A stretch of DNA of 64,000 bases from Rhizophagus irregularis. Its lineage: Eukaryota > Glomeromycota > Glomeromycetes > Glomerales > Glomeraceae. Below the pieces are notes generated by a model that ran no database searches, was not told the DNA's origin, and was given only the letters and a program-made list of their open reading frames with translations. A program made the position numbers and the translations under genes. The stretch is from assembly GCF_026210795.1 (NCBI RefSeq), contig NC_089448.1:2790001-2854000 (forward strand), read 5' to 3'. Below are positions 14,080-48,955 of the stretch, piece after piece (positions within the stretch are counted from its first letter, which is position 1; each line of letters opens with the position of its first letter).

Positions 14080-14841
14080 ATGCCACGAAAAGCTAATGAA
14101 CGTCAAGGCTTCCACGTGTTCAGTATAAACGATGACGTAGCTAGACCGCCGCCACAACAGCCCGAACCAAATTTCGCCACCATCATTGACTATGAAAATG
14201 ATTTTAAGATTTTGAATTCTGCGCATCATCAATTAACCCTTGATATCTCAACGCTTCTTAATAATTCCAAGACATCCCGCCGAGCAGCTAAGCTCAGACG
14301 AGAAGGGAAGCTGGAAGCTCCCCGCCCCCAAAATGCGTGGATCTTGTATCGAAAAGATACCAACGCTAGGTTTCGACAAACAGGGGAACATGAAGGAAAA
14401 AAATCCTCATTGATATCACAGATTATCGCAGAAATGTGGGAGAATGAGAGAGATGAAGTTAAAAAAATGTTTTTTGTACTTGCAAAATGGGCTGGTTACG
14501 TTCATAAGGAAGTGAATGACGAATATAGGTATTCCCCGAGAAGATCTGGGGAAAGGAGCCCCGAAACTTTACCTGGAGACCCTTTAGTTAATTATGAATT
14601 CGATCCAAACTTAAGTAATTTAAGTTCACCTTATCCCGAACATCCAATCACCGAATTTCCTGAATATCCAATCCCCATTCCTTTCGAATTTCCCCAAACA
14701 TTTTATTTTCCCGATTCCGGAACTGAAGAAATTCATGTTCCATACGTATTAGTACCATCATCAACCGAGATGATTTACTTTCCCGACTATGACGTATATT
14801 TACCCTCCCTATATCTTTGTGATATAGATTATATGATATAA
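14080..14841 (+). CDS. MATA-HMG box protein 1 of array
   Basis: 253 residues, one exon. The HMG box of the fungal mating-type type (MATA_HMG) spans about residues 81-156, opening with PRPQNAWILYRKD and holding the AEMWENE helix-2 motif and an EYRYSPRR end. The basic pre-box block common to the array is at about 51-80 (LTLDISTLLNNSKTSRRAAK). The N-terminus has the GFHVFSI variant of the array's short YxVFxV motif (residues 10-16). The C-terminal 95 residues are rich in Pro, Tyr, Phe and acidic residues, as in an activation-type tail (inference). By family knowledge it binds DNA in the minor groove as a nuclear transcription factor. It is the most upstream member, and its box is among the most divergent (FFVLAKWAGYVHKEV in helix 3). 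Confidence 0.88.
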   Translation: MPRKANERQGFHVFSINDDVARPPPQQPEPNFATIIDYENDFKILNSAHHQLTLDISTLLNNSKTSRRAAKLRREGKLEAPRPQNAWILYRKDTNARFRQTGEHEGKKSSLISQIIAEMWENERDEVKKMFFVLAKWAGYVHKEVNDEYRYSPRRSGERSPETLPGDPLVNYEFDPNLSNLSSPYPEHPITEFPEYPIPIPFEFPQTFYFPDSGTEEIHVPYVLVPSSTEMIYFPDYDVYLPSLYLCDIDYMI

Positions 14842-14871
14842 ACAATTCATTATAAATCTAACCTTTAGTCA

Positions 14872-14915
14872 TACTTGGTTCCCAGAATTCCCTCTCACAG
14901 ACACAATCTTTTTTT
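14872..14915 (+). promoter_or_regulatory. 3' element shared with HMG genes 8 and 9
   Basis: The stretch TTGGTTCCCAGAATTCCCTC followed by TCACAGACACAA lies about 35 bp after the stop codon. A similar pyrimidine-rich block (TTGGTTATCCAGATACCCCC then TCTCTCACATACAA) follows the eighth gene, and a weaker one follows the ninth. It could be a 3' UTR processing signal or simply shared ancestry. Confidence 0.4.
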
Positions 14916-14939
14916 GTTTTGAGTTTCGAAATATGTAAT

Positions 14940-17596: not shown

Positions 17597-18886
17597 ATGT
17601 CTAACGAACAAGGAACTTACTCAGTTTTTGGCGTTAATAACTCAACACTAATTCCCTTTCCCGATTTTTATGATACTATGTACTTTGGTGGGGACTCCAA
17701 GACTTATAGAGAACTCGTTTACACTTCAAGAATCAAGGATACTCTTAATCTTACTATTGAGGTTCTTACGAATGACTCAAAAACGTCCAGACTTGCATTA
17801 AGAAATGATAGAAAGAAGTCTAAAGGGGAACAAATTGAAATCCCAAGACCTCAAAACGCTTGGATCATTTATCGTAGAGACAAATATGTAACTCCCGAAT
17901 TTGAAGGAATAAAACCATGTATCGCCTCAAAAGCAATAGGCGAAAGATGGAAAACCGAAAGTAGCGAAGTTGTGGAATATTTTGTTGCACTTTCTATGTT
18001 GGCATTAGAAAATCATCATAACAAATATGGGAATTATAAATACAAACCTAAATCAAAAGCCTCCAAAAAATTCAAGAACCGTCAAAGACAACAACATAAA
18101 AGGAATACATCTCCTGAAACTGAGGAAACAACATTGAATCAAGACTTGCCTCAATTAGTTGTAAATCCTCCATCATCAATTAAAGAATATCCAACTCCGG
18201 TATCATCCATTCAACTTTCTCCCGTTACTGATTTCTCGGAACAAGCGAATGAAATTTCGTATCTCATGACCCCGGCATCATCAAATCATCAATCGCCTGT
18301 AACTTCTCAATATGGTTCCTCGGATATCTTAACCCCGGAATCATTAAATCAACAAACACCTATAACTTCTGAAGATATTTTGTCGTCAATGATGTATCCG
18401 CAATTCTCCGAGATAACACCCATTTCAACATACAACAATAATTCACGTGTGTTTTCCGAAGATTTTTTGAAATTTTTATATAGTGCTGATATCCTAGCTC
18501 TTCAACCTTCAACATATGTGACTTATAATACTGGTATCCCAGATATGACCTTTAATACTGATATCCCAGCAATCCCGGCACCCGATATGACTCTTAATGA
18601 TATGACTTTTGTTCCAGCAACCCCAGCACCCGATACTGATATCCCAGCAACCCTGGAAACCCTTACCAAATTTATTTTCACAAACATGAACGATCAAAAT
18701 AAAGATTTTGATCTTTATCCAGAAAGTGAACGACAAATACCTAATATTACTCCACCAGTAGCAGAACCGATGACAACAAGCATGCAAAACCAGATTTTTC
18801 AAGATATTTTTCAATACGACAGCAACGCTTTATTCTCGATCCATGCAACACCTGTGGAACATTACTACGACGGCTCATCCTTTTAA
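17597..18886 (+). CDS. MATA-HMG box protein 2 of array, long tail
   Basis: 429 residues, one exon, the longest member. The N-terminus carries TYSVFGV (residues 7-13). The pre-box block (LTIEVLTNDSKTSRLALRN) spans about 52-70 and the HMG box about 83-152, opening PRPQNAWIIYRRDK and closing YGNYKYKPK. A Lys/Arg-rich stretch at 150-170 could be a nuclear localisation signal. The roughly 260-residue tail is Pro/Ser/Thr-rich and holds two repeat types: TPASSNHQSPVTS/TPESLNQQTPITS (about 230-265) and PAxPAPDMT/PATPAPDTDIP (about 325-355). The likely role is a DNA-binding transcription factor with an activation-type tail (inference). A near-perfect hairpin lies immediately downstream (18907-18994). 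Confidence 0.9.
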   Translation: MSNEQGTYSVFGVNNSTLIPFPDFYDTMYFGGDSKTYRELVYTSRIKDTLNLTIEVLTNDSKTSRLALRNDRKKSKGEQIEIPRPQNAWIIYRRDKYVTPEFEGIKPCIASKAIGERWKTESSEVVEYFVALSMLALENHHNKYGNYKYKPKSKASKKFKNRQRQQHKRNTSPETEETTLNQDLPQLVVNPPSSIKEYPTPVSSIQLSPVTDFSEQANEISYLMTPASSNHQSPVTSQYGSSDILTPESLNQQTPITSEDILSSMMYPQFSEITPISTYNNNSRVFSEDFLKFLYSADILALQPSTYVTYNTGIPDMTFNTDIPAIPAPDMTLNDMTFVPATPAPDTDIPATLETLTKFIFTNMNDQNKDFDLYPESERQIPNITPPVAEPMTTSMQNQIFQDIFQYDSNALFSIHATPVEHYYDGSSF

Positions 18887-18906
18887 TAAGCAAAAATAAT
18901 TATTAC

Positions 18907-20821: not shown

Positions 20822-21622
20822 ATGATTACTTCACTATTGACACCTGACTCTTATGTTAAACATAAACATAATAATAATTACTTGGTTTTTGACGTAAATT
20901 CTAAAACTAAAAACGATGAAGAACTTTTAAAATATACCGACTATAAATTTAATATTGAACCTGAGATTCTCCTGTCCAATTCCACAACCACTCGATTGGC
21001 AGTAAGAAATAAGAAAAAAGGTATAAACAAAATTCCACGTCCTCAAAATGCATGGATTATTTATCGTAGAGACAAGAGTGTGGAATTGAGACGTGATGTT
21101 GCAAGAAGGAAACAAAAATCTAAAGATCTCTCAAAAGATATTGCGCAAATGTGGGAAAACGAACCAAAAGAAGTCAAGGAATTATTTGAAGCTTTGTCAA
21201 GAATGTCAGAAAAAATGCACGTCGAAAGGTATGGAAATTATAAATATAAGCCAAAAAGAATGAAATCAACATTGGAATCATCAGAAAAATTAAATAAACC
21301 ATATAAGCAAAGGAGATTCAAATTACACTCTACGTACGAAAAACCATTATACGTCGAAACGTGTGGAAATTATAAAACATATAAGCCAAGGATAACTAAA
21401 TCATTGGAATCATCAAATTCAAATTCACAAAAATCACCAGATTTATCAAATTCATTATCTGAATTCGCCGTAATCGCATTGACATACGAACACACATCAT
21501 CAGAACTCAAATCATTAAAGTCCGAACCTTCACCGGAAGAATATGGCTCTCGGCGGAACGCAATGATAATTAATCCGTATAAAAATTTTCCTTATAATAT
21601 TATGAACATTATGAACACATAG
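20822..21622 (+). CDS. MATA-HMG box protein 3 of array
   Basis: 266 residues, one exon. The N-terminal YLVFDV motif is at 20-25. The pre-box block (FNIEPEILLSNSTTTRLAVR) spans about 43-62 and the HMG box about 72-145 (PRPQNAWIIYRRDKS … MWENEPKEVKELFEALSRM … YGNYKYKPKR). The C-terminal region contains a partial second copy of the end of the box: HVERYGNYKYKPKRMKS (about 133-149) recurs as YVETCGNYKTYKPRITKS (about 177-194) about 135 bp further on, each followed by LESS. Downstream the tail is Ser-rich and acidic. This is a DNA-binding transcription-factor candidate; the duplicated segment probably does not fold as a second box because helices 1 and 2 are missing. Confidence 0.88.
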   Translation: MITSLLTPDSYVKHKHNNNYLVFDVNSKTKNDEELLKYTDYKFNIEPEILLSNSTTTRLAVRNKKKGINKIPRPQNAWIIYRRDKSVELRRDVARRKQKSKDLSKDIAQMWENEPKEVKELFEALSRMSEKMHVERYGNYKYKPKRMKSTLESSEKLNKPYKQRRFKLHSTYEKPLYVETCGNYKTYKPRITKSLESSNSNSQKSPDLSNSLSEFAVIALTYEHTSSELKSLKSEPSPEEYGSRRNAMIINPYKNFPYNIMNIMNT

Positions 21623-22486: not shown

Positions 22487-22894
22487 ATGTTGGCCACTAC
22501 TGAAAATATTAATTATGATGAAATTGTTAAAAAATCAAATTACAAGTTTAATTTACCTATCGAAGAGCTAATCAATAACTCCAAAGCCACTCAACGAGAA
22601 AAACGAAACAAGAAACAAGTCATTCCACGTCCTCCAAACGCGTATATGATTTACAGAAGGAATAAAGCGGAAAGTCCTGATATAAAATCTTCAGGTCAAT
22701 CATCTTCTAGTAAATCGATATTAATTGCAGATATGTGGAAGAACGAAACAGACAAAAATAAACAATTATTCTTTATTCTATCAATGCTAGCAGAAAAAAA
22801 TTGTCCAAAAGATCTTAAATATGTACAGAAAAAACCCTCTAATACTTCAAAATCTTCCAAAACTTCTTCAAATTTTATATTGTCAAAATTGTAA
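22487..22894 (+). CDS. MATA-HMG box protein 4 of array, short form
   Basis: 135 residues, one exon. There is almost nothing outside the pre-box block (FNLPIEELINNSKATQREKR, about 21-40) and the HMG box (about 48-115, PRPPNAYMIYRRNK … MWKNE). The box end is degenerate: the usual YGxxYKYKP is replaced by CPKDLKYVQKKP. The last 20 residues (SNTSKSSKTSSNFILSKL) and about 3 kb of downstream DNA are homologous to the end of HMG 5 and its flank, marking one copy of a tandem duplication. The upstream side is not homologous to that of HMG 5. It lacks the long tail, so if functional it may act as a DNA-binding competitor (inference). Confidence 0.85.
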   Translation: MLATTENINYDEIVKKSNYKFNLPIEELINNSKATQREKRNKKQVIPRPPNAYMIYRRNKAESPDIKSSGQSSSSKSILIADMWKNETDKNKQLFFILSMLAEKNCPKDLKYVQKKPSNTSKSSKTSSNFILSKL

Positions 22895-23674
22895 AAATTT
22901 TGATTTTTTCATTTTTTCTTTCTGTAGTTAAAATTTTTATATAATTCTTTTTTTTTTTTGTTTATTATTTTATTTCATTCGATATATTATTATTATTATT
23001 TTTAAATTTAAATTTTTGTCTTCTTGTTTTTTAAAAAAGTTTAATTTTTAAAGTGCAATAGTGTGCAAAAAAAAAAAAATAAATAAAAATTCTTTACATT
23101 ATTTGTAATTATTAAATACTGATAATTTCTAAGTGTCAATTATTAACATTTTTGAAATACGTCGTCTTTTCTCATCGAAGATTATTAAACTTATTAAAAC
23201 AATTTTGATAAATGTTAGCGCAAATTTATGTCATAAACGCAGTACATTTAATATATAAATTAAAGTCCGCGGTCATAAAAGTTCACCGATTTTTTCAGCG
23301 AAAAGTAACCAAATTTTTTGACGTCACAATCGTCACATATTCATATGGCATTCATATAGTATAAAATATATTCATATAACATATCATAGACTATAAGATT
23401 AATGATCGAATTTCCAGAAAGGGGAACCTAAATTGAACCTGAAGTTCACGAAAAAAAAATTGTAATTTACCAAATAGTACCAATATCTTTTGATCAAAAA
23501 AATTATTGTGTCCGGATTTAGAAAGTGAATAATCATGAGCCATTTATTTAATATATGTACGTAAATGAAGAACAAAAGTTATCTTTGCCAATCCGGGTCT
23601 AATTAGTAAAACTTTCATATTATTATTTATTATCAGATTCAGGTCCCGAGTTCTTTTGTTTAATTATGAACAAA

Positions 23675-23842
23675 AAGGTAAACAAAAACAACAAAAGCAA
23701 CAAAAGCAACAAAAGCAACAAAAGCAACAAAAACAACAAAAACAATAAAAGCAACAAAAGCAACAAAAACAACAAAAACAATAAAAGCAACAAAAACAAC
23801 AAAAACGACAAAAGCAACAAAAGCAACAAAAGCAACAAAGAC
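23675..23842 (+). repeat. AACAAAAGC/AACAAAAAC minisatellite
   Basis: About 17-18 nearly perfect 9-bp units (AACAAAAGC with AACAAAAAC and AATAAAAGC variants). The homologous place in copy B (about 27428-27470) holds only about four imperfect units followed by the same ACAAAGACTGTCGATC flank, so this array expanded after the segmental duplication. It produces artificial Leu- or Asn-Lys-Ser-rich open frames on both strands. Confidence 0.9.
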
Positions 23843-25914
23843 TGTCGATCCCGCAGTTTCGCACTCTATATTCCGGTTTTAATTTAATCCGAAACGACTG
23901 ATAAAGTTTTTCATGAGAAAAACTTTACAGATTAAATTAAATCAAATCTTATGGAACCGGGAATCTTTAAATTCCTTAAGTGTTTAGTAGGTTTTTTTAT
24001 TTTCTTTACAAAGAAAACGTTATTGTAAGTCATGGGGACTTGTTTTAAATATGTAAATCATGTTAATCCGTAGTTTTCAAGTAGTACACCAACCATGAGT
24101 GAATTAAATTATAATCGCGAATCTCACATCGCACAAAGTTACTGCGCTTTATTTTTTTTCCACCACACCTAGTGATGGTCACACCAATGTCTATAAGTTG
24201 ACGCACCTCAATCTTCACGTGTCTCACTTGATTCACGTCACAGTCGTCACATGCCCAAAATCTATCGTAAAAAATTTTTATCGCCTACTTTGTTAATAAT
24301 CGAATATAAGGTGAGTAAATTTAAAATAATTTTTTTTAAGACAACTAATCCCTTGTAACAGAGTGTACTGTGGTTTACTGCGCTTAATAACTAGGGTGAA
24401 TCCTAATACGTATTAAAAAAAAATTGAAAAGTACGAAAAACTTGGGAAGGGATTTATCCAATTACCATCACGAGTTTATTCAATTGAATTGTAAGAATTG
24501 TAAGATCAATTTGATTGAAACGATAATCTTAAACAACTTTTGCTTTATTATAATCTCTTCCTTTTTTTTTATTTAGATAAAAATATTGGGGTTATGTAAG
24601 AAAGTGGCTAATACATATCACGTCAAATCATGTGACGAAGAGGTTTGTATCTATTGATGCATGGGCTTATCGAGAAATAATTGATTGGGCTAATCGAAAA
24701 CTTCAAAGCCTCTAAAATCTCAAATCTCTCGAAATTCGACATGGAATTTTATGATTTATCAAGCATTTGGAAGAAATTATAAATATTCCAATCAAAAAAA
24801 ATAAGTGTGAAGATCAATTGCTCCCCTTCTCTTTATTAAATTCTTGCGACTTTTCTAATATCTTTTAATAATTTTATTTATTCATATAGGATAATAATAA
24901 TTTAATATTTTTAATAATCATATATATTTTCTTTTTCGTTTTTAACCAATATTTTCTTTTTTTTAAAAAAATTTTAATATTTGTCATTGTTTCTATTTCA
25001 TTTCTTTACTAATTATAACTTTTTTACATTGTTATTCACCCTTTTTTTTTCTTTAAATCACTTAATTACTATAAATAAAACTCATTAATCATATAAATGT
25101 TATTATAAATTATGTATAATACGGCACAATCAATACACGCAATTAAAGTCCGCATCGACATATACCGGTTTTTTTTGAGCAAGTATTGTTTCATATGTAA
25201 GTGCGTTATTGTAGAATATATATTGTACCTTTAACAAAGAGAAAACGACCATAATTTTGCCACAGGGCTTGCCACGGGACTGTAAATTCCGTACCAATAA
25301 TTTAATCGTATAATATGTATAGTAAAAAGGATTAACATTGATAAATTGCCAAGTTACCTAACATTACATATAACGGGTAATTCTGTGCAACCTATCATTT
25401 TTATTACCCACGGATATTTGAAACGCATAAAATAATTTTCTTCTTTTCAGTAAATGTTTTGATAAATGATAAGAATCATTTTTATAAAAAAAACTGGAAT
25501 TTTACCTGTAATTTTAACAGTAATTAAAACAATTGGTGTTAAAGAAAACATTATTCTAATGTGTGTAGCTACGAAAAAATCAAAAAATTCAAATGTCATG
25601 TCATAAACACATGATCCCAGATACCCTGATAAGCAGATCATATTCATAATTAGGTCAAATAACAATTACGTTCTTAACCGTGTTACAAGTCGTATCACAA
25701 CATTTTAATGAATCATGGGGCTTTGTTTATAGTAAATAATCTGATGTGATTAAAAGAAATAATTCGTTCATTTTTTTTTTTTTAAAAAAAAATCGAATTA
25801 CAAGATACAAGAAAAATTTATCTTTTGTATTTTTGTAACACAAATTAGTCAGTAATCGTGCCATCGCGGATATTTATCCCGTTTTACAAAATCAAAATAA
25901 AATTCTCCTAACCA

Positions 25915-25932
25915 AAATTTCTTATAAAAAAG
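25915..25932 (+). promoter_or_regulatory. Candidate core promoter of HMG 5
   Basis: AAATTTCTTATAAAAAAG contains a TATA-like box 117 bp before the start codon. The same AAATTTCTTATAAA stretch occurs before HMG 6 (29280) and HMG 7 (31104). Confidence 0.45.
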
Positions 25933-26039
25933 TGACATCTTATCAATTTAGTTTTATTCATCTCCCTTTTTTTTAAAAAAAAAAATAATAATCAAATAAA
26001 CAAATAAATTTAATTTACTTTATTATTTTGTTTATAAAG

Positions 26040-26477
26040 ATGAGTGAAAAAAAACCCGATTATTATAACTCAGTAAATAATCCGATCACTTTCAGTTCGG
26101 ATGAAGTACTTGTTAGGAATTACAACAATTTTAATTTAACATATGATGAACTTATAAATAATTCTCAAAATACCCGCCTCGCAAGAAGAAATGAAAGAAA
26201 TGGAACTAATATTATTCCACGACGCCAAAATGCATGGGTATTATATCTCAGAGATAAAAGCACGGGTCGTGATGTAAGGTTCCAATTTAAACAAATTGCA
26301 AAGATGTGGAATGAAGAACCAAAGGAGGTAATAAAAGTATACGAAGCAGCAGCAAGATTGGCCGCGGAAAGACACATAGAAAAGTATGGCTCGGATTACA
26401 AATATAAACCGGAAAAATCTTTTAAAACTTCGAAATCTTTAAAAAATTCTTCAAATCTTATATTTTCAAAATTTTAA
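26040..26477 (+). CDS. MATA-HMG box protein 5 of array, apparent hybrid gene
   Basis: 145 residues from the ATG at 26040, one exon; upstream in-frame codons lack an ATG. The pre-box block (FNLTYDELINNSQNTRLARR) is at 31-50 and the HMG box about 60-123 (PRRQNAWVLYLRDK … MWNEEPKEV … YGSDYKYKP). Residues 12-121 are very close to HMG 6, and the upstream promoter matches too. From about residue 124 the ending (KTSKSLKNSSNLIFSKF) and the 3' flank match HMG 4 instead. This is what unequal crossing-over near the end of the box would leave. Like HMG 4 it has no long tail. The promoter has a TATA-like box at 25923. Confidence 0.88.
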   Translation: MSEKKPDYYNSVNNPITFSSDEVLVRNYNNFNLTYDELINNSQNTRLARRNERNGTNIIPRRQNAWVLYLRDKSTGRDVRFQFKQIAKMWNEEPKEVIKVYEAAARLAAERHIEKYGSDYKYKPEKSFKTSKSLKNSSNLIFSKF

Positions 26478-27095: not shown

Positions 27096-29279
27096 TGGTA
27101 GATTTTTTGATAAGAAACATTTCTAAAAAAGGGAAACCTAAATTGGGTGTAGACTCTGAAAGGATTGAACCAAAAGAAACCTGAAGTTCACGAGAAAAAA
27201 ATTTGTAATCTACCAATAATTTCATAAAATCTTTTTTGAACACAAAAAATTATTGTATCCAGATTTAGAAAGTGAATAATCACCATAAGCCGTTTTTTTA
27301 ATAAATGTACGAAAAAGAACAACAAAGTTTTCTTTATAATTAGTTTTATTATTTTATTTTTATTATAAAAATAAAGTTGTATTAACATTATAAAATATTT
27401 TGAATCCAGATTCAGGTCATTTTGTACAAAAAGGTCGAACAAAAACAACAAAAGCAAACAAAAGCAGACAAAGACTGTCGATCACCGCAGTTTCGCACCC
27501 TATATTCCGGTATATTTCGAAACGATTGATAAGTTTTCCATGAGAAAAACTTTAACGGATTAAATTATTGAATTACAAATTTAAATTAAATCTTATGGAA
27601 CCGGGAATCTTAAAATTCCTTAAGTGTTTAGTAAGTTTTTTTTATTTTTTTTTTGATAAGAAAGAAAAAATTAATTAAATGTTGTTACAAAAAAAATGTT
27701 ATTATAAGAAAGTAGATGGTCATGAGGCCTTATTTTTAATTATGTATAAAAAAGTAAAACAGAAATATCATGCTAATCCGTAGTTTTCGCCATCTATATT
27801 CCGAAATAGTTAATTAAGTTTCGTATCATTAGAAATTTGAAGATTAATTAATTGAATTATAAAAATTGTAAGATTAATTAATTTGATTGAAACGATAATC
27901 TTAAACAACTTTTTAGTGCTTTATTATAATCTTTTTTTTTTATTTTGATAAAAATATTGTAATCTCAAGAAACGTGTTATGTAAGAAAGAGGCTAATACA
28001 TATCACGTCAAATCATGTGACGAAGAAGTTTGTATCTATTGATGCATGGGCTTATCAAATTTTTTTTTGAGAAATAATCGATGGGCTTATCATCAAAAAA
28101 CTTCAAGCCTCTAAAATCTCAAAATTTCTCGAAATTCGACACGGGAATTCCTAAAATTGTTTATGATTTATCAAGTATTGAAAGAAATTATAAATATTCC
28201 AACCAAAAAAATGTGTGTAGATCAATTCTCCCCTCTTCTTTATTAAATTCTTGCGACTTTTCTAATATCTATTAATAATTTTATTTATTCATATGGGATA
28301 ATAATTTTATTTTTTTTAATAATCATATATATTTTCTTTCTTTTTAACATTTGTCATTGTTTCTATTTTCATTTTTTTTACTATTTATAACTTTTTTCAT
28401 TGTTATTCACCCTTTTTTTCTTTTAAATTACTTAATTACTACAAATATTACTCATTAATCATATAAATGTTATTACAAATTATGCATAACACGGCACAGT
28501 CGGCACACACGCAATTAAAGTCCGCACATCATCAAAATATACCGGTTTTTTTTAAGCAAGGATTGTCGATTTAATTTAATTTTACATACGATATTTGTTT
28601 CATATATGAATGCGTTATTGTAAAAAGATTAATTGGTTTTGTAATTTTAACAAAATGAAAACCGAAGCTTTTTAATCAAAGCTTTGCCACAGGGCTTGCC
28701 ACAGGGCTGTAAATTCCGTACCAACCATTTGATTATATGATATGTATAGCAAATTATCAACATGGTAATTCTGTGTGCAACCTCTCACTTTATACCCACA
28801 TAAAAATTATTTTTCTTTTTAGTAGATGTATTGATAAAAAAAAAACTGGAATTTTACTTGTAATTTTACCCGTAATTAAAACAATTAGCGTTAAAGAAGA
28901 TGTTCTTTTAAATTGTGGGCTACGGAAAATGAAAATTTTAATGTCATAACACATGATCCAGATGAGCAGATCATATAATTAGGTCAAATAACAATTACTT
29001 CGTTCGTGTGACAAATTTCCCATCATAATAGCTGATCTTTTTATATTTACGTGTATTATACATAACATCATGGGGCTTTTTTCGAAATAATTTGTCCCAT
29101 TGTAAAAAAAAAAAAGAAAATCTTAAAACAAGAATATTGCTATATAAAAAAAAAATTTCGTGAATTACAAAGGTGAATTTTTCTTTTTATTTTCGTAACA
29201 CAAATTAATCAGTTAATCGTGCATTTAACATTTCATCACGGATATTTATTCCGTTATGCCAAATAAAATTCTCCAACCA

Positions 29280-29297
29280 AAATTTCTTATAAAAGGG
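29280..29297 (+). promoter_or_regulatory. Candidate core promoter of HMG 6
   Basis: AAATTTCTTATAAAAGGG with a TATA box (TATAAAAG at 29288) 103 bp before the start codon. It is conserved with the promoter of HMG 5 at nearly the same distance. Confidence 0.5.
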
Positions 29298-29390
29298 CCA
29301 TTTATTTATTTTTTTTTTCAAAAAAAAAGGAAATAAATAAAAAATAACGACAATTAAATTAAACAATTACTGCATTAATATCTTTATAAT

Positions 29391-30098
29391 ATGAGTAACA
29401 AATACTATCAATCAATAAATAATCCAATAACGTTCAGTACGGATGAAGTACTCGTTAGGAATTATAGAAAATTCAATTTAACATATGAAGAACTTATAAA
29501 TAACTCTCAAAATACACGTCTCGCAAAAAGAAATAAAAAAAATGGTACCAATATTATACCACGACGCCAAAATGCGTGGATTCTTTATCTTAGAGATAAA
29601 AGCCGTAAAATGAAAGGATTCAGTTCTAAAGAAATAGCTAAAATGTGGAACGATGAGCCGAAAGAAGTGGTAGAAGTATATGAAGCGGCAGCAAGATTGG
29701 CCGCAGAAAGACACATGGAGAAATATGGCCTTGATTATAAATATTTGCCAAGAAGGACCCGTAATAAAAAACCAAAGATTTCTAAGACTTCCAGAATACC
29801 GATAACCCCACCAACTACACCACCATCAAAAAATTCCATACAATTTCCGATTGTGACACCTCCAGAATTTCAGATTCTAGAATTCGTACCTGCGCCATCA
29901 GAACCAGATAATATAAATGATGTTCAATTTCCAGATAATTTATTACAACTATGCGATATTATGCAACTTATGCAAAATTGCGAAGAATGCAGAAGCCTCT
30001 TGCAAGGTTTACCGAATATTAATTTTGAAAATCCGAGCGACCCTTTAGAAAGTCAACATAATGAAATATCTCAAAAATGGGCCAAAAATATATTATGA
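29391..30098 (+). CDS. MATA-HMG box protein 6 of array
   Basis: 235 residues, one exon. The pre-box block (FNLTYEELINNSQNTRLAKR) is at 28-47 and the HMG box about 57-121 (PRRQNAWILYLRDK … MWNDEPKEVVEVYEAAARL … YGLDYKYLPRR). A basic stretch at 120-132 could be a nuclear signal. The tail of about 100 residues begins with a Thr/Pro run (about 138-146) and ends with a hydrophobic/acidic part containing LLQLCDIMQLMQNCEECRSL (about 183-202), possibly amphipathic. It is the closest paralogue of HMG 5 over the first 120 residues but keeps a tail that HMG 5 lacks. YLRDK replaces the usual YRRDK in both. Confidence 0.9.
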   Translation: MSNKYYQSINNPITFSTDEVLVRNYRKFNLTYEELINNSQNTRLAKRNKKNGTNIIPRRQNAWILYLRDKSRKMKGFSSKEIAKMWNDEPKEVVEVYEAAARLAAERHMEKYGLDYKYLPRRTRNKKPKISKTSRIPITPPTTPPSKNSIQFPIVTPPEFQILEFVPAPSEPDNINDVQFPDNLLQLCDIMQLMQNCEECRSLLQGLPNINFENPSDPLESQHNEISQKWAKNIL

Positions 30099-31287: not shown

Positions 31288-32469
31288 ATGAATAACATTT
31301 ACGATCCTTCGTCACCTGACCCAAGCAAAGTGACGTTCTTTGACTTTGGCAAAACTGCCAGCGAAATCTTGGAAAATACTCGGTATGAATTCACTTTACA
31401 CCCTGAAATCTTAGTACGAAACTCTGAAACTACTCGAAGAGCAAAGAGGAACCGAAAAAAAGGAATAAAAAAAGCGCCAAGACGCCAGAATCCCTGGATC
31501 ATATACCGAAGGGATAAGAGCGCCAACAAAGCGTTTTTTAGACTAAAATCTTCAGTTATTTCAAAAAGAGTTTCCATTATGTGGAAACATGAACCAAAGG
31601 AAGTTAAGGACTTATTCGAAGTCCTCGCGAAAATTGCCGAAGGGATTCATGAAACGGAACATAAAGATTACAAATATGTTCCCGGGCCCTCGAAAAAATC
31701 AAAACCAGAAAGAAAAAATAATTCAAATGATATGTATGAGGGCAAAATCCTCTGCTTTCCAACCCCCACCACTGATAATACTATGTCGACATATTCGGAC
31801 CCTCCAACTCCAACAAACGACACCACTATGATTAAGCTTTCATCATCACCGCCTCCAACTCCCACCACTGATATGACTATGTTACCATCACCGACATATT
31901 CGAACCCTCCAACTTCCACCATTCATATGTCTACGTTACCATCACCGACATATTCGAACCCTCCAACTCTAACAAATGACATCATTATGATTAAGTCATC
32001 ATCATCACCGCCTACATTTACAATTCCGGGACCCCCAACTCCCACATCAATGCCTCCAACTCCAACGACACTCACAGCTGATACTGATATGTCGTCACCT
32101 AGCCCTCTAACTCCGACGTCCCCTACTCCAACGTCTCCTATTGATATGCCACCATCAGAAGCCATAACAACAAACCCTGCGTACCTAATTTGCTATAATA
32201 ATACTATGTTGGTACCATCCGTACCTTGGGACCAAAATCTGTGCTTACAAAGTCCTGATATACCGGACTTCCCAAGCATGGAGCAAGCATTTTTTTCGAC
32301 CCCTCAAGATGAGGATTCTGACGACATTCACAACACCACCACCAACACCACCACCAGCACAACCACCACGGAAACCATCAAGTATGTCGAAGAATATTCG
32401 TTATTTCCGGGTTTGGAGGAAATTGAGATGCAATATCCTCTTCAATATCCTCTTAACAACCATTATTAA
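31288..32469 (+). CDS. MATA-HMG box protein 7 of array, repeat-rich tail
   Basis: 393 residues from the ATG at 31288; the longer open frame upstream starts without ATG and translates a poly(A) leader. The pre-box block (FTLHPEILVRNSETTRRAKR) is at 35-54 and the HMG box about 64-133 (PRRQNPWIIYRRDK … MWKHEPKEVKDLFEVLAKI … KDYKYVP). The near-invariant NAW/NAF Ala is Pro here, which is unusual at the start of helix 1. Residues about 155-290 are a coding minisatellite built on PTPTTDxTM, LPSPTYSNPPT and IMIKSSSSPP units. A Thr/Asn run follows (about 355-370) and the end is acidic. It is a DNA-binding factor by family; the Pro/Ser/Thr tail looks disordered. Confidence 0.9.
   Translation: MNNIYDPSSPDPSKVTFFDFGKTASEILENTRYEFTLHPEILVRNSETTRRAKRNRKKGIKKAPRRQNPWIIYRRDKSANKAFFRLKSSVISKRVSIMWKHEPKEVKDLFEVLAKIAEGIHETEHKDYKYVPGPSKKSKPERKNNSNDMYEGKILCFPTPTTDNTMSTYSDPPTPTNDTTMIKLSSSPPPTPTTDMTMLPSPTYSNPPTSTIHMSTLPSPTYSNPPTLTNDIIMIKSSSSPPTFTIPGPPTPTSMPPTPTTLTADTDMSSPSPLTPTSPTPTSPIDMPPSEAITTNPAYLICYNNTMLVPSVPWDQNLCLQSPDIPDFPSMEQAFFSTPQDEDSDDIHNTTTNTTTSTTTTETIKYVEEYSLFPGLEEIEMQYPLQYPLNNHY
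31760..32155 (+). repeat. Coding minisatellite in HMG 7 tail
   Basis: The segment encodes repeated Pro/Ser/Thr units. ACATATTCGAACCCTCCAAC occurs at about 31897 and 31948 with related TATTCGGACCCTCCAACTCC at about 31792, and ATGATTAAG…TCATCATCACCGCC occurs at about 31828 and 31986. The frame is kept throughout. Confidence 0.8.
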
Positions 32470-33623: not shown

Positions 33624-34568
33624 ATGTCGCAATCAACTTTTTATGTTGTTAAAAGAGGGTATATGCCCGATACTAAAGTCCCACCATCTCCTCCACAAAG
33701 ACCTTCTAATAAGCCAATATTTCTAAACGACGAAGAAATAGTTTTTCTTTCAACCTATGACTTTGCTATAAAGGTTGAAGTCCTTTTGGCAAACTCGAGG
33801 GGTAACAGAAGACCTAGAAGAAATTCTGGTCCACCTAGACCACAAAACGCCTTCATATTATATCGAAGAGATAAAGCTAAAAAGCACAAAAATGAACATA
33901 AAGGGTTAAGGTCATGCGATATTTCAAAAAAAATCGCAAAAATGTGGAGTGAGGAAACCCCGGAAGTAAAGGTTTTATTTGAGGCTTTGTCAAGATTGTC
34001 AGAAAAAGCCCATAATAAAAAATACGGAAATTACAAGTACAGGCCAATGTCGAAAAAAGACAGAAATGATAGGGAACGTTACAGTCCTATTCCCGATAGT
34101 CCCTCTTCGCTTTCTTCGTCATCAAGCTACGGACCTATTTTTGAGGATAATGCGGATAATAATGATATGATTTTGGACGAGTTTTTTACGTTTGATGATT
34201 CAGATGAATCTTATAATACGGCTTCTAATTTTTCCGGATTGAGTGATATATGGGCAAAAAAACCTAGCGATATTTCTGGTACCTTGGACGGAACGGCTAT
34301 TAACGAACCTAACGATGTCACTACCGAAACTCTACGTTCTGAAAACACTACGTCTTATGGGGTTGCAGGTAATGCAATCAATTCTAACGATATGCCAAAC
34401 TTTGGTAACTTATATACTCCTCCAGCTGGACCCATCCAGTTTGATGATAATTTTCTTATGTTCGCTTATCAAATGTATACTTTTTTTAATTCCATGAGCG
34501 CAAATCCAATGAGACCTGGTGCTGAAAATACAGCATTTTTAGGCTCAACTTTTAATGAGCCAAATTAA
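33624..34568 (+). CDS. MATA-HMG box protein 8 of array
   Basis: 314 residues, one exon. The N-terminus has TFYVVKRG (5-12), a variant of the YxVFxV motif, followed by a Pro-rich linker (19-27) and an acidic stretch. The pre-box block (FAIKVEVLLANSRGNRRPRR) is at 47-66 and the HMG box about 71-143 (PRPQNAFILYRRDKA … MWSEETPEVKVLFEALSRL … YGNYKYRP). The block is shorter here: the usual RNxKKG stretch is reduced to RRNSG. The tail is Ser/Asp-rich, then Asn/Met/Phe-rich, without repeats. NAFILYRRDK is the closest in the array to the classical mating-type box, making this a candidate for the least derived member (inference). Confidence 0.9.
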   Translation: MSQSTFYVVKRGYMPDTKVPPSPPQRPSNKPIFLNDEEIVFLSTYDFAIKVEVLLANSRGNRRPRRNSGPPRPQNAFILYRRDKAKKHKNEHKGLRSCDISKKIAKMWSEETPEVKVLFEALSRLSEKAHNKKYGNYKYRPMSKKDRNDRERYSPIPDSPSSLSSSSSYGPIFEDNADNNDMILDEFFTFDDSDESYNTASNFSGLSDIWAKKPSDISGTLDGTAINEPNDVTTETLRSENTTSYGVAGNAINSNDMPNFGNLYTPPAGPIQFDDNFLMFAYQMYTFFNSMSANPMRPGAENTAFLGSTFNEPN

Positions 34569-35694: not shown

Positions 35695-36618
35695 ATGTCT
35701 TGCAACATTTCTTTTGCCATTGACCTTATTAACAACCCCCTTGTACCTCAATCACCACCACCACCACCACCTGAATCAAACAGTTATAATAATTTTATTA
35801 TTGGAAGAAATATGAGCGATTATGACTTTATTAAGTCTTGGGGTTATCCTTTTAGCATCGATGTCGATGTTTTATTAGCTAATTCCGAAGATACAAGGGA
35901 TGCCAAAAGAAATAAAAAAAAGGGAACCGGAAAGGTGCCTCGCCCACCAAACTGCTTCTTTATATATAGGAGAAACAAGCAAGCAGAACTAAAGGCTTTT
36001 TATCAACTTACTCAAGGAAGGACCAATGAAAAATCTGCAAAAATTTCAAAATTTATTGCCGAAGAGTGGAGAAATGAACCTGAGAATGTAAAAGATTTAT
36101 TTAAAACTATGGCGAGAGAAGCGGAAAGGCTACATGCAATTAAAAACCCAAACTACACATATAGACCAAGACAAAAGAAAGGCAACAATCGAGAACATTA
36201 CGAAAATATTAGCGAGACTGGTTCTGATTGGAGTGATGATAAGTTTGACTTATCTAAATATATCCTCTCCCCAAGCATCACAAATACTTCCACCTCTTCT
36301 CAATCGGATACCGCTAGTTCAACTAATTCCCCATTGGTCGACATGGGTGAATTTCCTAACGACAATAACGATATTATTCAAACTGATTCCCCATTGGTTC
36401 TTAATTATAGTGACGATAACGATGTTAGTGACTTCCCATTGGTCGGGGTTTTATTTTATAACGCTGAAGACTTCACCCTTGATCAACCAATCAACCCAGA
36501 CGACATGTTCGTCGAACATATACCTCCCTTGATCGACAACGATCAAAATCAATATAACGAAAGTATTGATGATGATAATTTTGAAAAATTGTTTAACCAG
36601 TTCATCATTTGCGATTGA
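35695..36618 (+). CDS. MATA-HMG box protein 9 of array
   Basis: 307 residues, one exon. A seven-proline run sits at about 20-26. The pre-box block (FSIDVDVLLANSEDTRDAKR) is at 53-72, then RNKKKGTGKVPRP. The HMG box spans about 82-158 (PRPPNCFFIYRRNK … EEWRNEPENVKDLFKTMAREAE … NYTYRPRQ). Cys replaces the usual Ala in NAF/NAW, and helix 2 carries EEW rather than KMW. The tail is acidic, with three copies of a SPLV or FPLVG strand-like motif (about 213, 231 and 246). It is a DNA-binding factor by family, with an acidic activation-type tail (inference). The 3' flank has a TCTCTCTCTCTCAG block similar to those after HMG 1 and 8. Confidence 0.9.
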   Translation: MSCNISFAIDLINNPLVPQSPPPPPPESNSYNNFIIGRNMSDYDFIKSWGYPFSIDVDVLLANSEDTRDAKRNKKKGTGKVPRPPNCFFIYRRNKQAELKAFYQLTQGRTNEKSAKISKFIAEEWRNEPENVKDLFKTMAREAERLHAIKNPNYTYRPRQKKGNNREHYENISETGSDWSDDKFDLSKYILSPSITNTSTSSQSDTASSTNSPLVDMGEFPNDNNDIIQTDSPLVLNYSDDNDVSDFPLVGVLFYNAEDFTLDQPINPDDMFVEHIPPLIDNDQNQYNESIDDDNFEKLFNQFIICD

Positions 36619-38012
36619 TCTGGATATCAGACATCTCTCTCTCTCAGTTCTCAATCGAGAACACACATTTTTTTTTAGCAAATATTCTTGAATGTTTTTT
36701 TTTTTAAAGAAATTGAAAAAAATTATTTTTTAATTTAGATGGAGACATTTATTATTTAGTTGACATTTGTTTTTTAGGAAACATTTATTATTTAGGGGAC
36801 ATTTATTTTTATTTCAAGTAGGAATTCAAATTATTGAGTAAAGTATTTTTTACTATTTTTCTCAAATGATTATTGTGTTTTAAGAAACACGCTTTTTTTT
36901 TTTAGTCATAATATTAGCTAAAAAGGAAACACGCCTTTTTTTAGTAATAATATTAGTTATAAAAAAATTTTATTTTAAACTTTTCCGGATTTACTATATA
37001 CGCTATTAGCCGTATAAATTATACCAAACATATGCCTTTTTTATTACCTAAGCTACATATATGCTTTTTCTATGAAAAATTTTTTTTTTAAGTTTAATAC
37101 TATGCCTTTCTTTTATGTTTTTTTTTAAAGATTTTTAAGATTTTTTTTTTAATTTATTTTATTATATAAGATTTAAAAGTTTATTATATAAGATTTAAAT
37201 AAGTTTTTATAAACAATCTATGTATTTATTTTTTTTAAGATTTATAAGAAAAAAAATAAACGAAATTTTTTTATTAAAAATAAAATTCTTCTCTAAATGT
37301 GGTATTACTTGTAGTACAAGAATAAATCGGGTGAGTCCTTTTCTCCTTTTCTTATTAATTAACGATCCATTAAATATTTTGCAATTGTTTTCGATAAAAT
37401 TGTTTTAGAAAGAAAAAAAAAAAAATATTTATTATTTACTCAAACTACTCAAACAAGACGTCATTAATAATTCATATTGTTTAAAAAAAAAAAATATTCG
37501 CACAATCAAAAGAATTTTTAACTTAAAATTAATTTTATTTCAGGAAATTTATTTTAAATATTTAAAACCATTTATAGAGTCAGTGCCACGTAATAATAAT
37601 AATAAAAAAAAAAGAATCCGGAAAAACTGAAATATACAAGTTATTTAACCTTAATTGAACAAATGAAAAATGATTATACAGATTATACAGAGAACTTATT
37701 TAATGGTTTACTTTTGATAGAAATTTTGAAAGAAAAAAAAAAATTCTCTCTCCGTTTTTTTCTATTTTTTTTTTTAAAATTTTTTTTTTCAATAAATTTG
37801 TTCCCCGTCTTTTATGGTTTTTTTTTTTGTTATATATACATTTATATATATATACAGTATATATAGTATTATATATAGTATATATAACATTTTAAGAAAA
37901 GAAAAAATATATATGTAATTTTTTTTTTCAAAACACTTTCCTTTATTACACTTTTTTATTTTTTTCGTTTTTGTTTCTGTTTTATTTCATCGAAAAAAAA
38001 AAACAATTTAAA
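36619..38012. other. Intergenic region between HMG 9 and HMG 10
   Basis: AT-rich with repeated TTTATTATTTAG motifs (about 36745-36800) and TA microsatellites near 37840-37890. The open frames at 37220-37866 are low-complexity Phe/Lys/Ile runs and are not taken as genes. Confidence 0.45.
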
Positions 38013-38900
38013 ATGTCACAAAACCAAAAACGAAAGCAAAAGCTTAACAAACCTGCAAGACGGGGCTATTGTGTATTTACGGTTGAAAAAAACGGAGAAA
38101 AATCCTTACCCCCACCACCATCACCGCCGGACCCGAGAAGTGCCATACGGTTTGATATTAAGAGCGATGAAGACATCGTTTATCAATCTAATTATAAATT
38201 TAATATCAAAATTGAAGTCCTCATTAACAATTCAACAAAATCACGATGTTCTAAAAACAATGAAAAAAATGGTACTAAAAATGCTCCACGCCGTCAAAAC
38301 GCTTGGATACTTTATCGCAGAGATAAAAGTATGAATAAAGAATTTGAAGGGTTGACAACTGCAATTGTTTCATTAAAAATTCGCGAAATGTGGGAAAAAG
38401 AACCGTGGGAAGTCAAAGAATTATTTTCCGCTCTCTCTCGTTTGGCGGAAAAACGTCACATTGAACAATACGGTAAAAATTATAGATATCAACCCGTCCA
38501 CATGAAAAAACCTAAACCAAATCAACCAAATAAAAGGAATAAAAGGAAAGTAAAAAAAATAAATAAGAAATTAAATAATTGTGAGTTTTTTACGACAACA
38601 TTAGATTATTTTGCACCTGAAAATGAAACAATGAAATCACCCCCTTCAAATGATAATAGAATTAATGATACCAATAGCACTTCCAATAATACTTCCGATA
38701 GCACTTCAGAAAACTTCTTACCACCAATAGAATATGATCGAAACAACAACATTTGGCAAGATCCTATGTTAAAATTTAAGTTAAACGATGAGTATTCTTT
38801 CGTCAATAATTTTATTGAAATCGATGAAACAAATGAAATTAATGAAAAAAACGAATTTAATGAAAATACCGATATAGAAACATATGGAATATTTTCTTAA
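38013..38900 (+). CDS. MATA-HMG box protein 10 of array
   Basis: 295 residues from the ATG at 38013; the longer open frame begins without ATG. The N-terminus is basic (KRKQKLNK), then GYCVFTV (18-24) and a Pro-rich linker (33-41). The pre-box block (FNIKIEVLINNSTKSRCSKN) is at 63-82 and the HMG box about 92-162 (PRRQNAWILYRRDKS … MWEKEPWEVKELFSALSRL … YGKNYRYQP). A strong Lys/Arg cluster follows (165-193), a likely nuclear signal. The tail is Asn/Ser/Thr-rich and ends in repeated NEINEKNEFNEN (about 277-288). It belongs to the PRRQN subgroup with HMG 5-7. Confidence 0.9.
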   Translation: MSQNQKRKQKLNKPARRGYCVFTVEKNGEKSLPPPPSPPDPRSAIRFDIKSDEDIVYQSNYKFNIKIEVLINNSTKSRCSKNNEKNGTKNAPRRQNAWILYRRDKSMNKEFEGLTTAIVSLKIREMWEKEPWEVKELFSALSRLAEKRHIEQYGKNYRYQPVHMKKPKPNQPNKRNKRKVKKINKKLNNCEFFTTTLDYFAPENETMKSPPSNDNRINDTNSTSNNTSDSTSENFLPPIEYDRNNNIWQDPMLKFKLNDEYSFVNNFIEIDETNEINEKNEFNENTDIETYGIFS

Positions 38901-40462
38901 ACTTTCAACGCATGATGATTCGCGAATGTTATCCTGGTAGATACTAAATAAGATATGAAAATAATAACTTTTTTAATATTTTAAATATTAAATTTTAAAG
39001 AATTCCTTCTTTTTTCCCTAATTTTTTTTTTCGTTTTTACTTCCCTTAAAAATTAAATTGAGTTTCTTTAATTAAGTATTCTTTTTTTCCCTTTACGATA
39101 AAATTGTTTTTTTTTATTATCTAAGATTTTTATTAATAATTTTTTTTCAACACTCGGGAATTACTTTTATAAAAATGTTAAGATGTTTAGAATTTTTTTA
39201 CATATAAAAATTGCCAAAATATAGGTTTGTTGTTTCACAAGAAAAAACCAATTTTTCCGGTGTTGTGTTCTGTTACACAACCAAAACACATTCCTTTTTG
39301 AAATAACGACACCCCCAATTTTCTTTGACGGACGAGAATTTAAATATTTTTAGGTTCTCTTTTTTTTTTTTTTTTTCCTTCGATATTTCGAATATTTTTT
39401 TAGAATCTTAAAAAAAATCGTGATTTTTTAAGCCCATGAACGGGTTCTCCTTAATCTTTCATTAAAAGATTTACTTACCAATAATAATAAAATGATGAAA
39501 TGATATTTTTTTTTTTTATTGATAAAAAATGCTATTGTTTCAAAATATATCCAAATACCAAAGTCAAATAAATGCGTGTGGTTGGTCTTTGATGAAGATC
39601 ATGGGACCCAATTTACCCCCATCTTTTTTCAATCAACCTAAATAAATTCAATAAATAGATTTTTCCTAATCTTTTATATCGGTTTTTTTTTATTCGACGG
39701 AGAAAGATTCCGGTAACACGAGTAAACAAATGTTCTTTTGTCTTTTTTTTTTATTCGTATCCAAATCAGAAATTCAATAAACGTGATAAAAAAAAGTTTT
39801 TTGAAAGATAAAAATTCTAAAAAAAGCTTTTTTTGCTTTTTTTGATTTAATGAGAAATTATATAAATATGTACTTGTATAGTAGAATATAACATAAATAT
39901 AGTAGTATATAATATAAATATAATAATATATACATACAATATAATAATAATACAATGTAACAGATAAGATAATAATATATAATTAATAAATATTTTTTTT
40001 TTTTTTGAGCGTACAGAAAGAAAAATGGTTGGTTCTAATTTTTTTTTTTTCTACAAAACGAATTTGGAATTATTCAGAACTCGAACAAAGACCATAAGTT
40101 TCCATTTATTATTAAAACTTTTATTAGAGCAAGCTGCGGGTAATTTATATTTTTGCCTTATCGAGATGATTATTATGATTTTTTACCATTTTGATCTTTG
40201 AAAAAAAAAAACCTACCGGAAAAAACTTTAAATAAAAGTTCCTTTTAATAATTTTCTTAATGATTTGTACCAATTAAAATAATTAAACTAATTAATATGA
40301 GAATATATGTAAAATTTTCTTATATAAAGACACCAAATTGGTGGAAAAAAAATTCTTTGAATCAAAAACCATCTCGTCCATTTTTTCGTTTTCTTTTCTT
40401 TAACGGCTAACACCACATAACTTCTACCCAACTTACCCAACTTACCTTCCTCTCTACATATC
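38901..40462. other. Intergenic region between HMG 10 and HMG 11
   Basis: AT-rich spacer with a 16-T run near 39360 and TA/ATA repeats at 39880-39990. A TATA-like box for HMG 11 is at 40321. No gene is recognised. Confidence 0.45.
40321..40329 (+). promoter_or_regulatory. Candidate TATA box of HMG 11
   Basis: TATATAAAG lies 142 bp before the start codon, followed by ACACC. The leader downstream is relatively C-rich for this region. Confidence 0.4.
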
Positions 40463-41134
40463 ATGTCCAAAAATCGAGCCGTTAAAAGAAAAGCATACGA
40501 ATCACAAGGAAATTATCGCGTTTTCAGCCTATACGAAAACGCGAGTATTGATATGAATCCTTGTAAATCTCCCGCTAATAAAACCATTCATTTTGTGGGC
40601 GATGCTTGCGACAATTGTGACGGGATGGTTAATAATTTAACTCTGGATGCGGAGTTGTTATCAGAAAACTCCGATAAAACGAGAAAGGCTATCAGCAATA
40701 GAAAAAAGGGAATTGTTAAAGTTCCACGCCCTCCGAATGCTTTCATAATTTACAGAAGAGAGAAGAAAGCAAAGCATAACGACGTATTTTCTAAAAGAAC
40801 GGAAGCTGAGATATCAAAAGTAGTCGGTAAAATGTGGCAAAACGAACCGGAAGATACCAAAGATATGTATTATAGATTAGCGGAGCACGCTAAAAAAAAG
40901 CACTTAGAGAAGTATTCCGGGTATAGATATAAACCTGAAAGAGGTAAAAAAAAGGATAGTAGAAAAGAAGATGAGTCCATTGAGACCATCATTGAATCCA
41001 ATCATGAAGAACCGCCACCTAATTCAGACCTAACTCCTAATCCCGACTTAACTAATGATAACGCCGAGCCAATTCCAGAGTCAATAACACACCATGACAT
41101 TCATTTGGCCAGTTATTCGTATTATCTTTATTAA
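40463..41134 (+). CDS. MATA-HMG box protein 11 of array (last member)
   Basis: 223 residues, one exon. The N-terminus has NYRVFSL (17-23) after a basic start. A region with CDNC (49-52) precedes the pre-box block (LTLDAELLSENSDKTRKAIS, 59-78), and the HMG box spans about 88-160 (PRPPNAFIIYRREK … VVGKMWQNEPEDTKDMYYRLA … YSGYRYKPER). A Lys-rich stretch follows the box. The tail is short and acidic with a SDLTPNPDLT repeat (about 193-202). PRPPNAF is the classical mating-type HMG signature. It is the nearest array member to the housekeeping block: the ICMT gene starts 1.1 kb further on. Confidence 0.9.
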   Translation: MSKNRAVKRKAYESQGNYRVFSLYENASIDMNPCKSPANKTIHFVGDACDNCDGMVNNLTLDAELLSENSDKTRKAISNRKKGIVKVPRPPNAFIIYRREKKAKHNDVFSKRTEAEISKVVGKMWQNEPEDTKDMYYRLAEHAKKKHLEKYSGYRYKPERGKKKDSRKEDESIETIIESNHEEPPPNSDLTPNPDLTNDNAEPIPESITHHDIHLASYSYYLY

Positions 41135-48756: not shown

Positions 48757-48955
48757 ATTAGATTTATCTTGTAAAATTCTCTTATTTTTGTATAAATTTT
48801 TTTATATGTAAAACTATTATAACTAAATGTTATACGGGTGTAAGGATGATCTTCACGTGAACGCAATTAAAGTTAATTTTTGGTATAAATCATTTAAAAA
48901 TTTTTTCTCCTTTAAAAACGTGTCCTTGATACTTTACCGTACATATTGAACGAAC

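Follow-up and report, generated by a model that had tools for sequence, protein, structure and literature searches.

The plus strand of the 64-kb window (the whole stretch of DNA that was analysed) carries, between positions 14080 and 41134, eleven complete ATG-to-stop reading frames of 135–429 amino acids (H01–H11), every one of them containing a single SRY/SOX/MATA-type HMG box. All eleven match PF00505 in Pfam (E values from 9.6e-16 to 0.0013). Only six of them (H01, H03, H04, H08, H09 and H11) pass the 25.4-bit cut-off that Pfam sets for this family, so that an automatic pipeline could overlook some of these genes. A profile built from the eleven, run with filters off against every stop-to-stop piece of at least 20 amino acids in the six frames of the window, recovers H01–H11 at E ≤ 2.1e-35; the next best piece stands at E = 1.5, and the search found no decayed or relic HMG copy in the 64 kb. 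Given a local stop frequency of 0.083 per codon, open runs of these lengths would arise by chance with probabilities ranging, gene by gene, from 8.5e-6 to 7.6e-17, and the chance that all eleven share a strand is about 0.001. The first-pass annotation had described eleven complete one-strand HMG frames, as the reading frames, the Pfam matches and the profile search bear out, and its term 'intronless' appears to hold in that a single frame spans pre-box segment, box and tail in every gene. The motif it gave is looser than stated, the exact form of each element occurring in five or six of the genes: YRRDK in H02, H03, H07, H08 and H10, MWxxEP in H03, H05, H06, H07, H10 and H11, and YKYxP in H02, H03 and H05–H08. 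NCBIfam returned no family for any of the eleven proteins, Rfam and tRNA scans of the whole window returned nothing, and no relative of the array was confirmed among the IMG/VR and GTDB contigs scanned.

Coordinates here and below are on the plus strand unless stated. H01 (14080–14841; 253 amino acids, PF00505 E = 1.8e-9) has a tail of acidic composition, and H02 (17597–18886; 429 amino acids, E = 7.9e-4, below the cut-off) an acidic tail of 277 residues, 46% of them P, S, T, N or Q. Within H03 (20822–21622; 266 amino acids, Pfam box at residues 71–141) lies an internal duplication (21219–21415), the box end at 21219–21283 recurring at 21351–21415 (81% in a blastn self-comparison). H04 (22487–22894; 135 amino acids) is nearly box-only, with a basic tail of 20 residues and an altered box end; H05 (26040–26477; 145 amino acids) is an apparent chimera; and H06 (29391–30098; 235 amino acids) has, like H05, a shortened region between helices 1 and 2. 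H07 (31288–32469; 393 amino acids) carries tandem repeats in its tail (repeat at 31852–31969) and is followed by H08 (33624–34568; 314 amino acids, E = 3.8e-14), H09 (35695–36618; 307 amino acids, acidic tail), H10 (38013–38900; 295 amino acids, E = 0.0013, below the cut-off) and H11 (40463–41134; 223 amino acids, E = 9.6e-16).

Once frames that share more than 60 bases with an HMG gene are excluded, the spacers of the array hold 41 frames of at least 60 amino acids, 36 of which were compared with Pfam (the omitted ones being 23626–23865, 23663–23878 and 23682–23879, in a minisatellite, together with 37704–37892 and 39850–40050). The best match was to an ABC-transporter transmembrane model at E = 0.0089. 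The claim that no other gene lies inside the array is upheld to the extent that these 36 of 41 frames hold no credible one; a gene with very short exons could escape. In the flanks, all 72 frames of at least 65 amino acids were compared with Pfam (19 singly, 53 as a set), and TPT, EamA and helicase are absent from the families listed for them (for the set, 25 of 27 families). Frame 59833–60033 on the minus strand encodes a TMEM234-type transporter, which we take to be a distant relative of TPT/EamA; it lies 18.7 kb off, with several genes between. The left flank shows a transposase match below cut-off and local tandem repeats. A methyltransferase-like gene adjoining H11 was considered as evidence of a pheromone locus and discarded as such: its second exon scores above cut-off with the PEMT, ICMT and DUF1295 models alike, and its best solved relative, 4a2n, is archaeal.

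When the array profile was searched against the PDB, 27 of the 30 distinct sequences matched at E ≤ 0.001 were SRY/SOX proteins or fusions (best 2.2e-12), the remaining three being capicua, TOX and LEF1. Ten columns are invariant in all eleven proteins: the start methionine, the P-R-x-x-N at the box start, an L and an S in the pre-box segment, and four further positions in the box. The pre-box motif is common to the eleven and is helical in both predicted models, those of H03 (mean pLDDT 63.8, pTM 0.45) and H05 (71.7 and 0.60), the alignment underlying each consisting of the eleven sequences. The AlphaFold2 model of H03 has box helices at residues 77–96, 100–113 and 116–137 (ten-residue blocks of 71–140 at pLDDT 81–95), preceded by short pre-box helices at 32–37, 47–51 and 58–65 (blocks at 77–89). 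Foldseek paired this model with SRY/SOX boxes (probability 1.0, target TM as high as 0.92), at E-values that all exceed 0.001 (best 7.3e-3 for H03 and 0.31 for H05); the computed fold is SOX-like in these two members. Judged by their sequences and by the predicted fold of H03, H01–H11 appear to be single-box members of the sequence-specific (SRY/SOX/MATA) HMG class, nearer to SRY/SOX than to HMGB. They resemble SRY/SOX HMG domains in box sequence and predicted fold, and differ from them in the conserved pre-box segment, the mostly unrelated tails and the shortened helix 1–2 region of H05 and H06, which are missing residues between the two helices. Part of the box end is lost in H04, and because their boxes are altered, H04, H05 and H06 may bind DNA poorly.

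The core is shared at just 29–55% among the eleven, bar one pair at 80%. Over the eleven cores ω is 0.074, with synonymous sites saturated across the whole tree, and for H05/H06 it is 0.14 (dN 0.128, dS 0.92; NG86). These substitution estimates indicate that the core is under purifying selection, and the suggestion of diversifying evolution is not borne out for it. A low-complexity-filtered comparison of the eleven tails returned no pair at E ≤ 0.5; the short tails of H04 and H05 are homologous, the sole exception to a set of unrelated tails. Position predicts relatedness weakly. Without the H05/H06 pair the mean distance between neighbours is 0.593, against 0.591 for non-neighbours, and Mantel tests against separation in base pairs gave a rho of 0.29 for raw distances (p 0.03) and of 0.17 for the maximum-likelihood tree (p 0.11); clustering of members by position, which had been proposed as a mark of local tandem origin, is weak at most, and outside H05/H06 adjacent genes are no closer than others. 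Upstream of the genes, in regions of 400 bp, the best 7-mer occurs in six of eleven, and 20 of 30 shuffles reached six or seven, so no common upstream motif stands out; the established HMG-box target sequences AACAAAG, ACAAAG, WWCAAWG and AACAAT are not enriched upstream or in spacers (z at most 1.7).

The middle of the array contains two repeat units, S1 (22817–26405), made up of the end of H04, a spacer and H05 as far as its box end, and S2 (26400–29744), made up of the end of H05, a spacer and H06 as far as its box end. S1 matches 26400–29744 in blocks, with about 24008–24472 lacking a counterpart, and its spacer holds a minisatellite (23681–23839; 17.7 copies of the unit AACAAAAGC). In the spacers outside this main minisatellite the 8-mer AACAAAAG occurs 11 times against 2.3 expected; we set the enrichment aside as a signal, four of the 11 sites lying beside the minisatellite or in its S2 counterpart. 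H05 is H06-like in its 5' part and H04-like in its tail and downstream DNA, switching at the box end (breakpoint 26398–26411). At the 455 informative sites of the H04/H05/H06 comparison, 58 are H04-like and 191 H06-like to the left of the switch and 192 and 14, respectively, to its right; in the coding sequence alone (168 sites) the corresponding counts are 25 and 115, and 22 and 6. None of 2000 shuffles reached the observed split, whether for the whole region or for coding sequence only. On this site pattern H05 looks like a chimera that arose by unequal exchange between its neighbours H04 and H06. The exchange structure of H05 and the internal duplication of H03 bear out the first-pass view of a locally evolving tandem cluster. 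The footprint of duplication or exchange between neighbours is confined to H04–H05–H06: beyond S1/S2, self-comparison of the array gave gene-to-gene coding matches, within-gene repeats and spacer matches of at most 98 bases, and no further old exchange traces.

The genes and spacers of this region differ in divergence. In the two best-matching S1/S2 spacer stretches measured, 6–8% of aligned bases differ, in addition to indels, whereas H05 and H06, the closest gene pair (20% DNA difference over 120 codons), differ at 38% of third codon positions and by 25% on the promoter side; because of this disparity, spacers and genes have different histories. One-sided acceleration or conversion of H05 relative to H06 was considered and set aside, since none of six outgroup genes gave a significant result, although H05 has more unique amino acids than H06 with all six (lowest p 0.06).

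From these features, we consider that the array is probably a bank of sequence-specific MATA-HMG transcription factors, eleven functional genes with one box apiece, produced by tandem duplication and unequal exchange; a single sex switch is disfavoured. An intronless ancestral gene would have given rise to the eleven copies through old tandem duplications, and unequal exchange would then have reshuffled the array. In each protein the shared module of helical pre-box segment and HMG box would bind and bend DNA, and each would act through its own tail: the long forms, several of them acidic-tailed, could recruit other factors, and H04 and H05, which consist of little more than the box, could act as competitors at the same DNA sites. 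We infer nuclear localization, a DNA target and activator or competitor roles for these proteins, and, for the array, a role when genetically distinct individuals meet or at some other point of the life cycle.

The array bears on why arbuscular mycorrhizal (AM) fungi hold so many mating-type-like HMG genes. The route to new HMG genes that we propose, unequal exchange at the box end, would retain the DNA-binding module and swap the tail, and gene islands older than their spacers are a signature that can be searched for between isolates. The array resembles the Rhizophagus irregularis MATA-HMG family of Riley et al. 2014 (New Phytol), reportedly a great expansion of mating-type-class HMG genes, in the kind of gene and in being expanded. 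In the excerpted text of Mateus et al. 2020 (PMC7490403), the MATA-HMG expansion in R. irregularis and a five-gene tandem of HMG-box genes at one locus are already in print, which makes 'undescribed' too strong a word; because of that report, the array is seen as a bigger example of an already known type of locus. Five genes are described there and eleven lie here, and the two are possibly, though not necessarily, one locus; the flanking genes of the five are given in that excerpt as not similar to the Mucoromycotina MAT locus. Mucoromycotina sexM/sexP is, as in the array, a single-box HMG regulator (excerpts of PMC7490403 and PMC3834313), but it is a solitary gene flanked by TPT and RNA-helicase genes, whereas the array has eleven, and the families listed for its flanks include neither of these. 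Among papers on HMG tandems, judged mostly by titles and the starts of abstracts, PMC7490403 alone was relevant; PMC7732545 describes an HMG gene close to an NRPS gene, with no HMG tandem in the part consulted. No paper turned up in a search that linked tandem duplication to high mobility group genes, mating and AM fungi.

A mating-type or nonself-recognition region, in which the HMG genes would determine sex or compatibility and diverged allelic classes would stand in tandem, is in our judgement unlikely. In the excerpt of PMC7490403, GBC31594.1, an HMG gene of the R. irregularis five-gene tandem that is termed a SexM homolog, is upregulated in two-isolate co-inoculation of cassava COL2215, and the high divergence of the H05/H06 gene and promoter island (25–38%, against 6–8% for two spacer stretches of the unit) is expected if exchange joined two old allelic classes. 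However, eleven genes residing together on one chromosome misfit a one-idiomorph switch. The families listed for the flanking frames include neither TPT nor helicase, and the TMEM234-type frame lies far off. Published statements also count against this reading: TPT/helicase-type synteny was not found in AM fungi (PMC3834313), in-vitro co-culture proceeded without HMG activation (as cited in PMC7490403), and homeodomain genes are what the candidate R. irregularis MAT locus carries (PMC10386755).

We think it rather improbable that the array is an amplification of paralogues that has no regulatory importance today, its copies persisting by drift or slow decay in a repeat-prone stretch close to remnants of transposons. 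The three altered boxes would fit such decay, as would the sub-threshold transposase match and repeats of the left flank, but every one of the eleven frames is intact, the window holds no relic copy and the core is under strong selection. That the proteins are architectural, HMGB-like DNA-bending proteins is improbable: although the HMG fold is common to both classes and the box-only H04 and H05 resemble small chromatin proteins, the PDB matches are overwhelmingly SRY/SOX, HMGB1 appears at E ≤ 0.001 only as the second half of the SRY–HMGB1 fusion 2gzk (that stretch itself at E = 0.82), and the P-R-x-x-N-A start aligns with that of SRY. Equally improbable is a recombining recognition locus, in which an exchange created H05 by joining two allelic forms, long separated, of H06 and its promoter, and the H05/H06 island records balanced, mating-type-like allelic classes. 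If this were true, exchange at the box end would deal new tails to old DNA-binding modules, and HMG arrays would serve sex or self/nonself recognition in a combinatorial way, in fungi long considered asexual. Two nuclear types are reported in some AM fungal strains (excerpt of PMC6281316), but an assembly artefact of collapsed or duplicated haplotypes is very improbable because no two copies are near-identical, even the best spacer stretches being 6–8% apart with many indels and H05 and H06 20% apart in DNA.

The interval 14080-41134 is occupied by eleven HMG-box genes on the + strand (H01-H11, numbered along the array), which are separated by 0.86-3.1 kb of spacer DNA. The first-pass annotation had described complete one-strand frames carrying one HMG box each, and frame listing together with Pfam comparison bore this out for all eleven. 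Its claim that no other recognisable gene lies within the array also held, as the best Pfam E-value was 0.0089 among the 36 spacer frames scanned of 41 listed (≥60 aa). Searching both strands of the 64 kb with a profile of the shared core (pre-box motif plus HMG box) recovered H01-H11, with the next hit at E = 1.5, and revealed no relic HMG copies on either strand. None of the eleven frames (0/11) is interrupted; flanking genes, by contrast, are split, for example glutaminyl-tRNA synthetase, which from 60354 onwards has its domains spread over separate frames. The G+C content of the array is 36% in coding sequence versus 23% in spacers. A 132-aa frame at 36134-36532, overlapping H09 (35695-36618) in another frame, is probably a chance overlap.

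In each protein the core consists of the box and, ahead of it, a pre-box motif with the consensus FNLxxExLxNNSxxTRxAxRNxKxG; ten columns are invariant across the eleven, one being the start M and two the pre-box L and S. The nearest solved proteins by sequence are SRY and SOX (27 of 30 matched sequences). An AlphaFold2 model of H03 (20822-21622) gives short pre-box helices, then the three helices of the box, with a tail of low confidence, and SRY/SOX are again nearest by predicted fold (probability 1.0, but E-values >0.001). Residues between helices 1 and 2 are missing from H05 and H06, and the box end of H04 is partly lost; three box helices, the first one short, are still predicted for H05, whose model gave weak fold matches (best E 0.31, probability 0.99). 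The tails after the box span 20 to 277 residues, and a filtered all-against-all comparison of them detected no likeness at E ≤ 0.5. The short tails of H04 and H05 are nevertheless homologous (27 codons, 78% identical bases).

Core identity among the genes is 29-55%, and 80% for H05/H06. A codon model gave an omega of 0.074 for the core, a rough whole-tree value because most pairs are saturated at synonymous sites; for H05/H06, dN is 0.128 and dS 0.92 (NG86). Support for H05+H06 was 100 in both the protein and codon core trees, and for H09+H11 (H11, 40463-41134) it was 96 in the codon tree and 65 in the protein tree, with all other groupings below 70 in both. How far apart two genes lie in the array is only a weak guide to how similar they are.

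H04 (22487-22894), H05 (26040-26477) and H06 (29391-30098) bear the footprint of an apparent unequal exchange. The segment 22817-26405, from the H04 end to the H05 box, recurs in blocks as 26400-29744, from the H05 end to the H06 box, with parts between the blocks lacking a counterpart (for example, about 24008-24472); the 5' side of H05 thus resembles H06 and its 3' side H04. A site-by-site count places the switch at 26398-26411 (codons 120-124, the YKYKP box end), with 58 H04-like versus 191 H06-like sites to the left and 192 versus 14 to the right, a partition matched by 0 of 2000 shuffles. The order H04-S1-H05-S2-H06, where S1 and S2 are the repeat units with the two spacers, is what a single H06 x H04 crossover in an ancestral H04-S-H06 arrangement would be expected to produce. 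H03 carries a second rearrangement, also at the box end, in which 21219-21283 is duplicated at 21351-21415.

We compared paired stretches of our choosing, counting mismatches among aligned bases. S1 and S2 differ at 22/371 positions just after the stop codons and 48/599 in mid-spacer (24473-25120), each distinct from the 46/120 at H05/H06 third codon positions (p ≤ 2e-15), while the 0.9 kb before H05/H06 differs at 195/790 (p 0.003 against the same third positions). Elsewhere in the spacer, divergence is 5% in the block at 23808-24007, 13% in that at 23436-23586 and 20% in an 80-base piece preceding a break. The H04/H05 tails likewise diverge more than the DNA after their stops (18/81 versus 22/371, p 3e-5). 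This gene/spacer mosaic goes beyond what one exchange event explains. An exchange between two haplotypes whose genes had diverged beforehand is the less favoured explanation, and if true would represent a novel case; we favour, as simpler, homogenization of the spacers by later conversion. Relative-rate counts with six outgroups gave no significant one-sided acceleration of H05 versus H06.

The H04-H05 spacer also contains a minisatellite (23681-23839; 17.7 copies of AACAAAAGC). In sequence the unit is similar to known HMG-box targets such as AACAAAG; the 8-mer AACAAAAG is enriched in other spacer DNA too.

The array belongs to a known kind, and its host is presumed, as in the first-pass annotation, to be an arbuscular mycorrhizal (AM) fungus. 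PMC4771724 counts more than 100 HMG-box factors for Gigaspora rosea, and PMC3834313 describes diverse SexM-like copies without TPT/helicase synteny in AM fungi. PMC7490403 reports a five-gene HMG tandem in Rhizophagus irregularis, one member of which (GBC31594.1, called a SexM homolog) was raised when two isolates were inoculated together in cassava genotype COL2215; the same paper cites an absence of HMG activation in in-vitro co-culture. In the portions available of the open-licence literature searched, we found no description of an array of such size, a chimeric gene or a gene/spacer mosaic.

Pfam comparison of the flanks took in all 72 listed frames of ≥65 aa (for one set, with 25 of the 27 matched families listed). 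Among the matches listed were Kre9/KNH, PEMT/ICMT-like methyltransferase, DnaJ, WD40 repeats, ATP-synt_C, Rad51, TMEM234, glutaminyl-tRNA synthetase and ribosomal L4, and none to TPT, EamA or helicase families; DDE_1 transposase and CutA1 pieces fell below cut-off. TMEM234 is a distant relative of TPT/EamA transporters, and the piece found here (59833-60033, minus strand, E 3e-10) was not counted as a sex-locus flank because it lies 18.7 kb from H11. Just downstream of H11, on the same + strand, is the two-piece membrane methyltransferase (42256-43073; closest solved structure 4a2n, E 1.3e-9). Methylation of prenylated pheromones is carried out by Ste14-type enzymes, but the match here is not specific, and we did not take it as evidence for a pheromone locus. 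The right flank (48950-63998) holds split genes (WD40 protein, ATP-synt_C, Rad51, glutaminyl-tRNA synthetase, ribosomal L4), of which several are housekeeping genes, and the left flank two local tandem duplications (4710-6816 and 1-806). Fragments at 7321-8563 read, to us, like a pogo/Tigger-type transposase (DDE_1 E 9.7e-4 for 7984-8337; no Pfam match for 7321-7578). Over the array and its immediate borders (12001-44000), 15 of 16 two-kb steps have a negative GC skew, and the skew is negative in pooled coding (-0.116) as well as pooled spacer (-0.068) DNA; outside this interval it is positive in 14 of 16 steps.
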